A program made the translations under genes and the position numbers. Shown piece by piece: positions 24,418-29,553 of a DNA stretch of 64,000 nt (position 1 is its first letter; every line of letters begins with the position of its first letter). A model generated the notes under the pieces. The model ran no database searches and had not been told where the DNA came from. It saw only the letters and a program-made list of their open reading frames with translations. The stretch is from Comamonas aquatica NBRC 14918 (GTDB lineage: Bacteria; Pseudomonadota; Gammaproteobacteria; Burkholderiales; Burkholderiaceae_C), in assembly GCF_000739875.1 (NCBI RefSeq), contig NZ_BBJR01000038.1:62001-126000 (forward strand). The letters are read 5' to 3'.

Positions 24418-25602
24418 CTACAGGTACTTGAGCCAGGTCAGGTCGCGCCGGCGCTGCTTGAGCGCGGCAAACCAGCGCACGGCCGGGTACAGGGCCACGG
24501 CCAGCAGGGCCGAGATCACCCACAGCCACAGCAGGCGGTCCAGCCCGAACAACTGGCCCTGGTTGGTGCCCCAGGCCGCCACCGCCGCCAGGTACATGCA
24601 CTTCAGCACATACAGGTGCAGCACATAGAAGAACATGGGCGCCGCCCCCAGCGTGGCCAGCGGCGCCAGCCAGCGGGCACCGGCCCGCGCCTCGAACCCG
24701 CGCAGCAGCAGCAGGCCCACGCCCAGCGTCAGCAGCAGGAACAGCAGCGACGGCGGGTACTTGGTCACGTTGAACCAGGCCATGACCGTGTGCAGCGTGG
24801 TCGCCCCCGCCTGCCAGGGCGCATCGCCATAGACATTCAGCGTGCGCAGCAGCGCAAAGCCCAGCAGGCTGGCCACCCCCGCCACCAGCAGCAACTGCCG
24901 GCGCCGCGCTGCATCGCAGGCCTGGCCAAACCAGGGGCCGATGCCATAGCCCAGGGCGATCACGCCCACCCAGGGCAGCACCGGGTAGGAGGTGCGCAGC
25001 TGCACCCCGGCCAGCTCCAGCCAGCCCCGGTCATGCAGGATGGCCCAGGGCGCATGCAGCAGATGGCCGGCGGGGAAATGCAGGCCGTCCAGCAGGTTGT
25101 GCCCCGCCACCAGCACCACGCCCAGCACCAGCAAGGCCCGGCGCGGCAGCCACACCAGCATCGACAGCGCCAGCATGGACAGACCGATCGCCCAGATCAC
25201 CTGCAGGAACACCTTGGCCGGCGGAAACTGGAAGGTCCAGGCGAAGTTGATCACCGTCACTTCCAGCAGCACCAGGAACAGGCCGCGCCGCCACAGAAAA
25301 CCCGAGGCCGCCGCCCGCGCCTGCCCGGCATCGGCATGGCGGCTGGCGTACAGGTAGGCACTCAGCCCCGTCAGGAACACAAACACCGGCGCGCACAGGT
25401 GCGCCAGCATGCGCGGGACAAACAGGCCCGGCGGCGTGTCGGCCACCACCATCGGGTCGGGCACCTGCAGGTGCAGGTAAAAGGTTTCGCGGACATGGTC
25501 CAGCAGCATGAACAGCATGACCAGGCCACGCAGCGCATCGATGGATTGCAGCCGGCCAGCGCCAGCCAGCGCACTGGGCGCAGAAGCAGAGAAGTTTTTC
25601 AC
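24418..25602 (-). CDS. DUF1624 membrane acyltransferase-like protein
   Basis: A 394-residue integral membrane protein with about ten hydrophobic segments, matching DUF1624 (heparan-alpha-glucosaminide N-acetyltransferase-like). The N-terminal pattern RLQSIDALRGLVMLFMLLDH is diagnostic, with the conserved His in LLDHVRE; CAPVFVFLTGLSAYLY and MFFYVLHLY follow. The likely role is acyl transfer across the inner membrane to an envelope sugar. The start codon is GTG at 25602; an in-frame stop lies two codons upstream, so it cannot start earlier. A perfect dyad sits directly before it. Confidence 0.85.
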   Translation of the reverse strand: MKNFSASAPSALAGAGRLQSIDALRGLVMLFMLLDHVRETFYLHLQVPDPMVVADTPPGLFVPRMLAHLCAPVFVFLTGLSAYLYASRHADAGQARAAASGFLWRRGLFLVLLEVTVINFAWTFQFPPAKVFLQVIWAIGLSMLALSMLVWLPRRALLVLGVVLVAGHNLLDGLHFPAGHLLHAPWAILHDRGWLELAGVQLRTSYPVLPWVGVIALGYGIGPWFGQACDAARRRQLLLVAGVASLLGFALLRTLNVYGDAPWQAGATTLHTVMAWFNVTKYPPSLLFLLLTLGVGLLLLRGFEARAGARWLAPLATLGAAPMFFYVLHLYVLKCMYLAAVAAWGTNQGQLFGLDRLLWLWVISALLAVALYPAVRWFAALKQRRRDLTWLKYL

Positions 25603-25720: not shown

Positions 25721-26027
25721 GTAGCGCTTGCTGGATAAGCGCTAGAGGCTGATTTGGTGCTGGTTGCTGTTTTGGCTTTTGCCGGCCGCTTGTCGCGCGG
25801 CAGGCGACTTCCTTTTCTTGCTCGTGCAAGCAAAGTAAGCAAAAGAAGCGCGCCCTGCTGCCCGTGACCCTGCGCTGCGCTCCGGGCAACCTGCGGTGCT
25901 CGGTCCCAGGGTGGGGCCGCAGAACTCACTGCGCTCCTGCGGCGCCTCGGCACAGGTCGAAGGGGTGAGAGGCGGAACCCCGTGCCTGCATGCGCTGTGT
26001 GTGGGGGTGGAAAGTTCTTTTCAACCA
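25721..26027 (+). repeat. Long repeat, copy 1
   Basis: The unit opens with AGCGCTTGCTGGATAAGCGC and GAGGCTGATTTG, then has CCGCTTGTCGCGCGGCAGGC, a hairpin at 25809-25838 (two mismatches), CAGAACTCACTGCGC, and a tail GTGGGGGTGGAAAGTT. Frames within it are not genes. Confidence 0.8.
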
Positions 26028-26438
26028 TGTGAGCAGGTGGCGCTTGCTACATCAGCGCTAGAGGCTGATTTGATGCTGATTGTTGTTTGAGATTTTGCTG
26101 GCCGCTTGTCGCGCGGCAGGCGACTTACTTTTCTTGCTTGCACAAGAAAAGTAAGCAAAAGAAGTGCACACCTCTACCCGTGCCCCTTTGGGCTTTGCTA
26201 CGCAAAACCCAAGCGGGCAGCCTCTGTGCTCGATCCCAGGGTAGGGCCGCAGAACTCACTGCGCGGCTATGCCGCTCCGTTCAAACAGCTGCGGCCAGTC
26301 AGGTCACGAAGCCGATGCGTCCTACGGCGCATCGGCCCACCCTGCGCTCTGCGCGCCTCGGCACGGGCAGAAGGGGTAGGTGGCGAGACCCTGTGCCTGC
26401 TTGCTCTGTGCGTGGGGGTAGAAAGTTTTTTTCAGCAA
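26028..26438 (+). repeat. Long repeat, copy 2 (with about 95 bp extra)
   Basis: A direct copy that starts GTGAGCAGGTGGCGCTTGCT. Its hairpin (26124-26155) has a perfect 13-base-pair stem, CTTACTTTTCTTG pairing with CAAGAAAAGTAAG. Between CAGAACTCACTGCGC and GCCTCGGCAC it carries about 95 bp absent from copy 1. Confidence 0.8.
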
Positions 26439-26595
26439 TGTGAGCAGGTGGCGCTTGCTGGATAAGCGCTAAAGGCTGATTTGGCTCTGATTGTTGTTTG
26501 AGGTTTTGCTGGCCGCTTGTCGCGCGGCAGGCGACTTCCTTTCCTTGCTTTCCCAAGAAAAGGAAGCAAAAGAAAGGAACCCTGCTAGCGCCACG
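26439..26595 (+). repeat. Long repeat, copy 3 (left half only)
   Basis: It repeats GTGAGCAGGTGGCGCTTGCT, the GAGGTTTTGCTGGCCGCTTG segment and the hairpin (26535-26566; CTTCCTTTCCTTG with CAAGAAAAGGAAG, one mismatch), then stops near the end of the small membrane-protein gene. Confidence 0.78.
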
Positions 26596-26630
26596 TATTG
26601 GCAGCCCCCATGCCGACACTTTATGAGCAG

Positions 26631-27059
26631 TTAATTTTTTTGATCCCAACCAGTAACGTAGCCGTCTTCCACCGTGATTCGAAGACCAAACCGGTTGCCA
26701 CCCTGATGGCGGTATTTCCACACATCGCGCGTCTTAGTTTTAAGAAGCTTGTGATCCACAGCAACTGGTGGGCCAAGGGCATCAAGCAGCTGCGCCTCAC
26801 TTTGCCCTTGCCAAAAATATCCTTGAAATATTTTTTGCACCACCTCTTCGTTCGCGTACTTCCCTCGCAGATAGAGCAGACGCTTTTGCTTCTTGTCGTG
26901 CTGAAACCAAAAGAAGAATGCCACCGCTCCGGCAAGCACAACGACGGGAATGATCCAGCCCACGGCTTCGAAAATCTTTGCGATACCAGCAATAGGAAGC
27001 GCAATCAGTGCAAAAACTCCTATGCCCGTGCTCTCCGCCTTTGTAAATCGACGCGCCAT
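26631..27059 (-). CDS. Small membrane protein with two N-terminal helices, unknown function
   Basis: A 142-residue protein. Two hydrophobic helices (about 11-27 and 33-51; GVFALIALPIAGIAKIFEAV and WIIPVVVLAGAVAFFFW) are followed by a basic HDKKQKR stretch and a soluble domain with FWQGQSEAQLLDALGPPVAV and RFGLRITVEDGYVTGW. The domain recalls small BamE/SmpA-like folds, but I would not assign it. A strong GAGGAGAAAG site precedes the ATG. Base composition is clearly less GC-rich than the flanks. Long repeats lie on both sides in opposite orientation, which suggests it was acquired. Confidence 0.8.
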   Translation of the reverse strand: MARRFTKAESTGIGVFALIALPIAGIAKIFEAVGWIIPVVVLAGAVAFFFWFQHDKKQKRLLYLRGKYANEEVVQKIFQGYFWQGQSEAQLLDALGPPVAVDHKLLKTKTRDVWKYRHQGGNRFGLRITVEDGYVTGWDQKN

Positions 27060-27244
27060 GCGCTTTCTCCTCAGTTATCTAATTGGGGTTATCGACGGCA
27101 TACCAGATGCATGTCCAGCTCGCCTCGGACTATAGAAAATTTGCAGGTCCAGAAGCAATGAAGTTGTCGTGCCGTTCAAACGGACCATCCTCTTTGCCCA
27201 ACGCACAGCGCCACCCGCGCGCGCAAGCGTCGCGCGCCCCATCT

Positions 27245-27475
27245 CGTGGATGTTCCTCATATTTCCGGCGGCTGTTTGAACGCAGCGACGCAGGAGCGCA
27301 GTGAGTTCCGCCGGACAGCCGCCTGCAAGGCGCGCCTTTTCTTTCCCCGGTTTCTTTTGGCAAGACAAAAGAAATCGGGTCGCCGCCGCGCGATAAGCGG
27401 CCTCTGCAAGCAAACACACAACAAAAACATAGCTACATGCGCAATCCCCAAAAGCGCTAGAGCCAAAAAACACTA
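27245..27475 (-). repeat. Long repeat, copy 4, inverted and diverged
   Basis: Read on the minus strand it has, in order, a mini-repeat head (27425-27470, TAGCGCTTTTGG and ATGTAGCTATG), CCGCTTATCGCGCGGCGGC, a 14-base-pair hairpin (27346-27379, one G-U pair), and GGAACTCACTGCGCTCCTGC. This is the same order as copies 1-3. Confidence 0.72.
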
Positions 27476-27564: not shown

Positions 27565-29553
27565 TTACCCCTCGTCAGACGCAGTCTCCGCACGCACATC
27601 GAATTCCACCTTCCAGCGCTCCGTGCCGCCCACCGGCACGGCATTCAGCTCCAGGGTGCCAATGTCGGTGACGCGCGCCGCCAGGGTGACGGGGACGACC
27701 TCGCCAGCCGCGCGGCCGGCGGCGGGCAGGTGCAGTTCGATCTCCTGCAGCTCGACCAGCTCCTCGGGGCCCCAGAAGTCCAGCATGGTGCCCACGGCGT
27801 CACTGCGGCGCACGCTGGAGCCGAAGAAGCGCAGGCGCACGGGTTCGCCCACGACCAGGCCCAGCTCCAGGTCGCTCAGCGCGGCCTCGGTGCCCTCTTC
27901 CATGCCAAACGGGGCCAGGCACAGGGCGGAAATGGGCGGCTCCATGCCGGGGATGGCGGGCATGTTGGACTCCACGCCCACGTAGTACGACTGGGCCGTG
28001 CCGCCACGGATGCGCACGCCGCGGCCGGTGGTGGTGATGTGGCCGTAGTAGGCCGCTCCCCGGGCGACGGCCAGGTCCAGGTTGGCGCCATCCAGCAGGC
28101 GCGCGGGCTCGCAGGCCTCGTCGTCCAGCCAGCCGTTGATGACTTCCAGGATGCGCTGCTCGATCTGCGGGGCCTTGAGCACGCCGCCGTTGAACAGGAT
28201 GGCCGTGGGGTGCAGGAAGGTGGAGCCGTCCACCTGGTCACCGTTCAGGCCGTCGATCTCGGCCAGGGCGTGGACCTGGCGCGTCAGGAAGGCGGCCAAG
28301 TGGCGCGTGACGGCGGCGTCCTGCGCATAGGGCAGGCCCAGCTGCGTGAGCGCGGCGCGGGCGCGGATCTGGGGCTTGTCGCTGACCTGGACTTTGGGGA
28401 AGAAGCCTTCGACCAGCAGGGCCAGCACTTCGTCGCGCGTAACTTCGGTGCGGATGCTGCCGCCGATCAGCTTGCTGCCCCGGCTGGGCACGACCACGGG
28501 CACAGCCTGCAGGTGGGCATCGGCCAGCAATTGCTCTTTGGCGGCACGGCAGCCGTGGGCCAGGGCGCGGGTCTGCCAGGCGTCCAGCGGCTTGCCCTCT
28601 TGCGCCAGCTTGCGCGCCACGCCATAGGCCAGGGCCAGGTCCATGTTGTCGCCACCCAGCAGGATGTGCTCGCCCACGGCAATGCGCTGCAGCGCCAGGT
28701 TGCCGTCGCGCTCCAGCACGGCGATCAGGGACAGGTCGGTGGTGCCACCGCCCACGTCCACCACCAGGATGATGTCGCCGTGGCGCACCTGCTTGCGCCA
28801 CTGGCCGCCGCTGGCCTGGATCCAGCTGTACAGCGCGGCCTGGGGCTCTTCCAGCAGCGTCAGATTGTGGAAGCCGGCGGCCTTGCAGGCCTCGGCCGTC
28901 AGCTCGCGCGCGGCGGGGTCGAACGAGGCGGGGATGGTGACGGTGATGTCTTGCTGGGCGAACGGGGCCTCGGGGTGGGCCTGCTCCCAGGCCCAGCGCA
29001 GGTGTTCCAGATAGCGTGTGGAGGCGGTCAGCGGCGAGATGCGCGCGACTTCAGCCGGGGCATCGGCCGGCAGGATGGCCGCGCGGCGGTCCACACCGGG
29101 GTGGCACAGCCAGCTTTTGGCGCTGGACACCAGGCGGATGGGCGTGGCCGCGCCGCGGCTGCGGGCGAATTCGCCGGTGATGAAGGCGCTGTCGGCTGCG
29201 TGTGGCGCCTGGCCGGGCAGCGTGCGCTCGGCCACGGTCAGTTCGCTCTCGTGCGGCAGGTACAGGAAGGAGGGCAGCAGCGGCTGGCCCGCCACGCTGG
29301 CGGGCGCGGTGAGCTGGGGAATGTCCAGCACGCCCTGCACCACCTGTTCGCCGTCGCTGGCGGCCTTGTCCACATAGGACAGCGCGCAGTGCGTGGTGCC
29401 CAGGTCAATGCCGATGCTGTAGCGCGCGCCCGCAGTTTTCAAGCCATTTTGGCCTGCAGCGCTGGTGGTGTCTTCGCTGGGTGCTACGGTATTTGCAGGC
29501 GCGGCCGCGGGTGGTACCGCCCCGGCGGCGGCGATGGAAGCCAGCATGTTCAT
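27565..29553 (-). CDS. Hsp70-family protein, DUF2760 partner
   Basis: A 662-residue DnaK-like ATPase lacking a classical substrate-binding domain. The phosphate-1 motif IDLGTTHC begins near residue 49, VVDVGGGTTDLSL is the second, and ILFNGGVLKAPQIEQRI the adenosine motif. The first 45 residues form an unusual extension, of which about 21-40 is encoded by a dispersed repeat. The stop of the DUF2760 gene lies three bases upstream of the ATG, so the two are tightly linked. It is paralogous to the 958-residue Hsp70 at 21-24 kb, with the same order of motifs. The client is unknown. Confidence 0.88.
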   Translation of the reverse strand: MNMLASIAAAGAVPPAAAPANTVAPSEDTTSAAGQNGLKTAGARYSIGIDLGTTHCALSYVDKAASDGEQVVQGVLDIPQLTAPASVAGQPLLPSFLYLPHESELTVAERTLPGQAPHAADSAFITGEFARSRGAATPIRLVSSAKSWLCHPGVDRRAAILPADAPAEVARISPLTASTRYLEHLRWAWEQAHPEAPFAQQDITVTIPASFDPAARELTAEACKAAGFHNLTLLEEPQAALYSWIQASGGQWRKQVRHGDIILVVDVGGGTTDLSLIAVLERDGNLALQRIAVGEHILLGGDNMDLALAYGVARKLAQEGKPLDAWQTRALAHGCRAAKEQLLADAHLQAVPVVVPSRGSKLIGGSIRTEVTRDEVLALLVEGFFPKVQVSDKPQIRARAALTQLGLPYAQDAAVTRHLAAFLTRQVHALAEIDGLNGDQVDGSTFLHPTAILFNGGVLKAPQIEQRILEVINGWLDDEACEPARLLDGANLDLAVARGAAYYGHITTTGRGVRIRGGTAQSYYVGVESNMPAIPGMEPPISALCLAPFGMEEGTEAALSDLELGLVVGEPVRLRFFGSSVRRSDAVGTMLDFWGPEELVELQEIELHLPAAGRAAGEVVPVTLAARVTDIGTLELNAVPVGGTERWKVEFDVRAETASDEG
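29437..29497. repeat. Dispersed repeat inside the second Hsp70 gene
   Basis: TTTTCAAGCCATTTTGGCCT, then GCAGCGCTGG...CTTCGCTGGGTGCTACGG. It encodes NTVAPSEDTTSAAGQNGLK, the same frame and nearly the same peptide as copy A in the other Hsp70 gene, but at the N-terminus. Confidence 0.7.

Follow-up and report, generated by a model that had tools for sequence, protein, structure and literature searches.

A Burkholderiales repeat family of convergent, structurally conserved arms, some pairs of which enclose foreign-looking genes

Four arm copies between two genes of Comamonas aquatica

In the 64,000-nt stretch of the Comamonas aquatica genome that we analyzed (the window), an acyltransferase-like gene (Pfam HGSNAT_cat; 24418..25602, minus strand) and an HSP70-like gene (27565..29553, minus strand) flank four copies of a long repeat, hereafter the arm, together with one low-GC open reading frame (ORF). 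Copy 1 (25721..25965, plus strand) comprises a head, the block CCGCTTGTCGCGCGGC at 25786, a hairpin that we call C, and a residual part carrying AACTCACTGCGC at 25923; its junction is mostly missing, and our junction model, R2, finds no match in it at E 0.0001. The most complete arm is copy 2 (26038..26400, plus strand), in which hairpin C is followed by a three-way junction of stems P1, P2 and P3 (26229..26358, plus strand; R2 match of 128.7 bits). Copy 3 (26449..26582, plus strand) is truncated after hairpin C, where the low-GC gene follows, and likewise has no R2 match at E 0.0001. Copy 4 (27206..27475, minus strand), towards which the 3' end of the HSP70-like gene points, is a divergent inverted arm whose equally divergent junction is still recovered by R2 (27206-27331, 48.3 bits).

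The first-pass annotation of this DNA had recognized these copies, three direct and one inverted, and we find them close to where it placed them. Of the common order of parts that it ascribed to them, the CCGCTTGTCGCGCGGC block is present throughout (25786, 26102 and 26513, with an inverted variant differing by one base at 27385), but AACTCACTGCGC is limited to copies 1, 2 and 4, and is missing from copy 3, which ends shortly past hairpin C. On recounting, hairpin C has 11 of 13 Watson-Crick pairs in copy 1, for which no count had been given (25808..25839, plus strand; exceptions C-T and T-C), 13 of 13 in copy 2 (26124..26155, plus strand) and 12 of 13 in copy 3 (26535..26566, plus strand; exception C-A), in agreement with the perfect stem and the single mismatch previously read in copies 2 and 3. 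The 14 pairs of copy 4 (27346..27379, minus strand; 13 Watson-Crick) also stand, but the G-U reported among them is a G-T only on the plus strand of the window, and becomes an A-C when the arm is oriented as copies 1-3. Four copies are too few to establish the compensatory change that had been claimed from them; it is the wider family, discussed below, that establishes it. Since copies 1-3 resemble one another at 81-85% over some 150 nt, and copy 4 resembles them at only 56-61%, one recent tandem duplication is an insufficient explanation of the array.

The ORF that separates copy 3 from copy 4 (26631..27059, minus strand; 142 aa) has a GC content of 0.50, as opposed to 0.68 for the window, which bears out the earlier observation that oppositely oriented copies surround a gene of different base composition. 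Its predicted structure is a low-confidence model (mean pLDDT 63.7) in which two long helices at the N terminus are accompanied by three strands, and for which the top Foldseek match, BamE at E 0.2, is not significant. Homologs occur in three of 200 genomes of the family, our own genome counted, and in the two other genera a motif scan and reading of the surroundings revealed no arms nearby.

Architecture, pairing and spread of the arms

Copies elsewhere define the full arm. Its outermost part is the head; next come two hairpins, the short B and then C, the latter trailed by AAAAGAA or a similar motif, and a linker leads on to the junction, which measures about 130 nt. Within the junction, the long stem P1 closes the structure, while P2, which contains a small internal hairpin, is followed by a conserved linker that stays unpaired and by stem P3. 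In the repeat unit, a short spacer separates two convergent arms, each about 290 nt long. We modeled hairpin C (R1) and the junction (R2) separately. A further small hairpin, AGCGCTT...AAGCGCTA (AGCGCTT...AAGCGCT), lies at 25723-25744 and on other contigs of the same genome (L011-L020); it is frequent in arm heads but is likewise seen on its own (the pattern has 11 matches on the two strands of the genome, and none when reversed), and is probably a separate repeat.

The convergent arrangement emerged from a survey of all 146 R2 matches in 10 genomes: among the 74 neighboring matches at most 4 kb apart, 57 are convergent, nine divergent and eight point in the same direction. The spacers of the 57 convergent pairs fall into two sets, with 54 of 23-167 bp, none of 168-846 bp, and three of 847, 1077 and 1288 bp; these three widest pairs are the present locus (847 bp), one on another contig of the same genome (C67) and one in genome G001. 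Of 62 convergent pairs collected by hand, with partnerless single arms and repeated loci left out, 55 have spacers of up to 366 bp and seven of 847-2496 bp, a proportion that is not a rate because some of the loci were picked for their wide-looking pairs. With two more from the family list (L369, L370), there are nine wide pairs with spacers of 0.85-2.5 kb, and in eight of them the spacer has a lower GC content than its surroundings, the exception being L288.

The wide spacers differ in content. On C67 (L081 3786-4547), a 253-aa ORF lies between the arms, its only Pfam match being a sub-cutoff one to the protelomerase domain (E 0.0064). L213 holds a DUF1963 protein of 610 aa, L138 a RelE-like ORF and an HTH ORF (both sub-cutoff in Pfam), and L077 both a stretch judged PLD-like by eye and an ORF matching DUF4325, as well as ATPases at sub-cutoff scores. 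The spacer of L220 has a 125-aa ORF without a family, that of L288 several such ORFs, that of L369 a 362-aa frame starting inside arm sequence, and that of L370 two ORFs with starts that look lipoprotein-like by eye. PADLOC was applied to five of the enclosed proteins and gave a single weak match, to DrmA (26 bits) for the protein of L077, which we do not take as evidence of a defense system. The bracketing of genes by opposed copies, first noted at the present locus, is therefore seen at other sites as well, and some of the pairs enclose genes that look foreign. The two sites of our own genome even share one layout: a full arm, a truncated arm, a gene and a divergent inverted arm. Two other local arrangements were also observed. 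On a third contig of this genome (C57; L082 3163-3560 and 5120-5540), divergent-type compact units with spacers of 23 and 91 bp lie on either side of a long ORF. In genome G014 (L073 3172-3522 and 3892-4241), two units 720 bp apart have identical spacers and identical scores, and are a recent local duplication.

The arms are widespread in the family. R1 matches occur in 42 of 61 genomes, namely 36 of the 37 from the genus of C. aquatica (its own included) and six of 24 others in Burkholderiales. R2 matches were found in at least 36 of 100 genomes of the family, each of a different genus, and in at least 14 of 300 genomes of the order, both figures being lower bounds because scoring was confined to 34 and 11 candidates per genome, respectively. 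A degenerate arm pattern recovered at least 120 stretches in named genomes; among the matches listed, most come from Comamonadaceae and relatives, with some from Alcaligenaceae (Candidimonas, Paralcaligenes) and unplaced metagenome-assembled genomes (MAGs). This pattern had no exact match in viral contigs, and a plasmid search yielded two partial, distant matches. The arm match is the same (4-122, 75.8 bits) in a Ramlibacter MAG (L164) and a Stagnimonas MAG (L173) from one sample series, and the latter record may be a mis-binned contig. Rfam gave no match at gathering score for the present locus (best sub-threshold E 0.05), and a search of one open-access library found no description of the junction, other than that of a possibly related repeat, BRE, to which we return below.

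Covariation and the nature of the folded molecule

The fold is maintained by paired substitutions well beyond the present locus. In an alignment of 37 junctions made without reference to structure (MAFFT), in part of whose rows P1 is off register by one column, 82.3% of the cells are paired, as against 61.9% after shuffling, and 33 of the 38 pairs have undergone double changes. In a larger set of 109 matches (107 distinct), drawn from 80 of the 120 named loci (L149-L228) and aligned to the model, and hence biased towards it, 92.3% of the cells are paired, as against 63.8% after shuffling and 31-45% when the partners are shifted by 1-3 columns; double changes affect 36 of the 38 pairs. For hairpin C, 49 distinct sequences give 94.2% paired cells versus 77.6% shuffled, with double changes in 10 of the 14 pairs. 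All three sets were checked against shifted partners as well as shuffles, and in all of them the cells count sequences and not events. Further pair types are no more numerous than in shuffles for the 37 junctions (64 vs 68.5) or hairpin C (17 vs 17.0), and exceed chance in the 109-match set (111 vs 97.8). The excess of compensatory changes that the earlier reading depended on is thus found family-wide.

That reading took selection on an RNA or a cruciform as the simplest cause. Strong covariation together with conserved unpaired stretches would indeed suit a single structured RNA, transcribed from one strand and selected at every site, for which a preponderance of G-U over A-C would be anticipated on the strand modeled. 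The junctions have 55 G-U and 71 A-C among 3747 cells (31 and 61 without the four outermost pairs), whereas the 408 pairs of 19 distinct tRNA genes from the same genus include 24 G-U and no A-C, although ARAGORN, with which they were predicted, may favor standard pairs. The absence of a wobble preference on the modeled strand is therefore evidence against a single sense-strand RNA. As an A-C excess on this strand is a G-U excess on the other, an RNA of opposite orientation retains some room: the inner pairs show 57 A-C to 30 G-U after merging at 90% identity (p = 0.005), and hairpin C shows 29 A-C to two G-U cells. This excess fades with merging, to 40 vs 30 at 80% (p = 0.28) and 22 vs 24 at 70% for the inner pairs, and to eight vs two events (p = 0.11) for hairpin C; over all junction pairs, the merged counts of G-U and A-C are 51 vs 65 at 90%, 44 vs 47 at 80% and 30 vs 26 at 70%. 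Given these counts, and with no Rfam family reaching threshold, we consider a single structured RNA improbable. Of the previous proposal, then, the conserved fold stands, with a cruciform or another folded DNA as one possible form of it, while a single RNA oriented as copies 1-3 is disfavored. Folded DNA, or RNA made from both strands, fits the pair counts best.

Perfect Watson-Crick stems with G-U as rare as A-C are also what would be predicted if no selection were at work and template switching between the arms of a palindrome rewrote the stems, introducing double changes in single events. The arms of genome G032 allow recent changes to be followed. They can be sorted into two types, of 21 and 17 arms (one aberrant arm left out), and, relative to the consensus of their type, these 38 recent arms have 43 one-sided stem changes and not a single two-sided one. 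In pairwise comparisons of arms with loop divergence below 0.10, two-sided differences amount to at most 0.54% of pairs. The two consensus sequences themselves differ on both sides in 10 pairs, nine of which are Watson-Crick in both, and on one side in seven. Compensation looks stepwise, because recent changes are one-sided and two-sided pairwise differences so scarce, and the stems look constrained; template switching, which moreover leaves the conserved unpaired stretches unaccounted for, seems to us very improbable. In the two types, the divergence is 0.020 and 0.014 at stem sites and 0.147 and 0.074 in unpaired columns, so that in these resident copies the stems are 5-7 times slower to change, which led us to abandon neutral decay of the G032 copies and suggests constraint at the resident site and not only during movement. 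The fold is strongly conserved, apparently as DNA and not as a single RNA.

Mobility and comparison with known systems

Signs of transposition are clearest in G032. Here the arm pair sits inside an element of about 755 bp, whose other full-length copies share 84-93% identity with the reference copy, except for one at 78%, and whose ends are formed by CCTGATTAG and its inverse; 10 of 15 copies tested combine these terminal inverted repeats with an exact 8-bp target duplication. Across 71 flank pairs, 8-bp duplications occur at 14 loci, where the null gives 2.2 on average and 5 at most, the four outside the G032 ten lying within hairpins. Other lengths compare with the null as 40 vs 31.7 (5 bp), 31 vs 13.9 (6 bp), 4 vs 3.6 (7 bp), 2 vs 0.43 (9 bp) and 6 vs 0.63 (10 bp); clean element ends coincide only with the 8-bp duplications of G032. 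We looked for terminal inverted repeats and a target duplication at the present locus and found neither, and the other genomes examined yielded no convincing terminal inverted repeat with a duplication. The G032 end pattern (ends only, up to two mismatches, 41 genomes) has 39 matches in G032, six in three other genomes and none in our own, with one match for the reversed pattern. The ends listed for G032 include no facing ones at the distance of 0.8-4 kb that an autonomous partner would have, and no cognate transposase for the arms was found. One derivative of 137 bp (L304 1501-1637) has the same ends and an 8-bp duplication around a central B-like palindrome, and no arms; it is either an internal deletion or the ancestral empty form. 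As it shows that the ends can dispense with the arms in G032, the arms may be passengers.

Presence and absence at orthologous sites point the same way as the duplications. Arms accompany the HSP70 gene at three of 30 orthologous loci, namely our own, that of G034 (a compact pair) and that of G010 (one arm), and in G004 the HSP70 and acyltransferase genes lie about 0.2 kb apart with no element. With respect to genes, compact units occupy gaps between convergent genes more often than control gaps of at least 150 bp do (24/53 vs 53/197, p = 0.012) and gaps between divergent genes less often (5/53 vs 42/197, p = 0.05). These counts come from a crude codon-based gene caller, which left 34 of 93 units without a gene on one side and miscalled the present locus, whose true layout is tandem, as divergent; six wide pairs were counted separately, and two tandem cases (L123/L346 and L148/L347) were counted twice.

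This placement raises the alternative of a bidirectional RNA element, in which the arms serve as terminators or 3'-end stabilizers in transcripts of both strands between facing genes. Because any G-U becomes an A-C when read from the opposite strand, only Watson-Crick pairs would last in such an element, in keeping with the equal rarity of the two mispairs, the mirror-image layout of the arms, and the enrichment and depletion just described. However, the enrichment is modest, as 29 of the 53 placed units lie outside convergent gaps and the two tandem cases are double-counted; moreover, a terminator needs no three-way junction of 130 nt with conserved unpaired sequence, and the target duplications of G032 are left unexplained. 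We therefore hold this alternative to be somewhat unlikely.

Among known systems, the integron attC sites are structure-conserved sites that lie beside small accessory genes and all point the same way. The arms resemble them in their conserved structure and in adjoining small accessory genes, but they are longer and predominantly face each other. A cassette system of a kind not yet described might nevertheless be envisaged, with the arms folding as three-way junctions in DNA and being recognized by a recombinase or transposase, so that genes enter, leave or spread between them; the 142-aa gene, the 253-aa gene on C67, and, in other genera, the toxin-antitoxin-like pair (both members below Pfam cutoff) and the DUF1963 gene would then be cargo of one machinery. 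We rate this as unlikely.

A closer likeness is to REPINs and BIMEs. Their unit is an inverted doublet, mainly extragenic, with a hairpin-forming spacer and compensatory changes (PMC3116915), and the convergent pairing and compensated hairpins of the arms match this. The arms are unlike the short REPs in their length and three-way junction, and in that some pairs enclose genes. If the family were a true REPIN family, it would be mobilized by a RAYT (Y1) transposase, and a single Y1_Tnp gene is indeed present in 10 of 11 Comamonas-group genomes (L359-L368), in arm-free surroundings and of domesticated appearance. At none of these 10 Y1 loci, however, are there arms (R1 has no match, and R2 one match at E 0.13); our own genome has arms without a Y1 match, and G004 a Y1 match without a hairpin-C match. 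The 8-bp duplications of the single species G032 are a further departure from the REPIN pattern, such duplications being, to our knowledge, not expected of Y1 enzymes. Mobilization by a RAYT is accordingly highly improbable in our estimation.

In G032 alone, the elements are like miniature inverted-repeat transposable elements (MITEs) in their terminal inverted repeats, 8-bp target duplications, size of about 755 bp and many copies; they are unlike them in the elaborate paired arms inside, in the failure to find such ends and duplications beyond G032, and in that no partner transposase was found. The family thus behaves like a REPIN or a MITE, but fails the RAYT test, and satisfies the description of a MITE only in G032. 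The third relative to be considered, BRE, is a betaproteobacterial repeat of about 90 bp, usually intergenic and sometimes in tandem, in Bordetella and Comamonadaceae (PMC3110155). It is like the arms in these habits; its description, in the portion available to us, differs in dealing with single units and tandem arrays and makes no mention of convergent pairs or cargo (PMC3110155). BRE may represent a fragment of the arm.

Taken together, the best reading of the family is that of a MITE- or REPIN-like mobile repeat with elaborate arms. More specifically, we tentatively propose, with slightly less than an even chance of being right, that the present locus is a single site of a Burkholderiales repeat family whose members, with two convergent arms per unit, are non-autonomous and either still or formerly mobile. 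Convergent pairing, covariation, the lack of a G-U preference, the G032 duplications, the presence/absence pattern and the cargo support this proposal; against it are the confinement of ends and duplications to G032, the absence of the end pattern from our own genome, the armless G032 derivative, the failure to find a cognate transposase, the excess of 6- and 10-bp duplications, and the slow change of stems in resident G032 copies. On this mobile-repeat proposal, the arms would fold in single-stranded or extruded DNA, and the folded arm would be the feature recognized by the moving machinery or by a host factor. Units would settle chiefly at gene ends, and the genes between arms might have been gained via recombination through the repeats or via the same machinery.

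The junction is common in the family, being present in at least 36 of the 100 sampled genera, and no Rfam model matches the present locus. The arm is a clear example of a fold that is strongly conserved and yet behaves unlike a single RNA. The gap in spacer size between the compact and the gene-bearing pairs, in turn, makes the capture of genes by a non-coding repeat directly testable.
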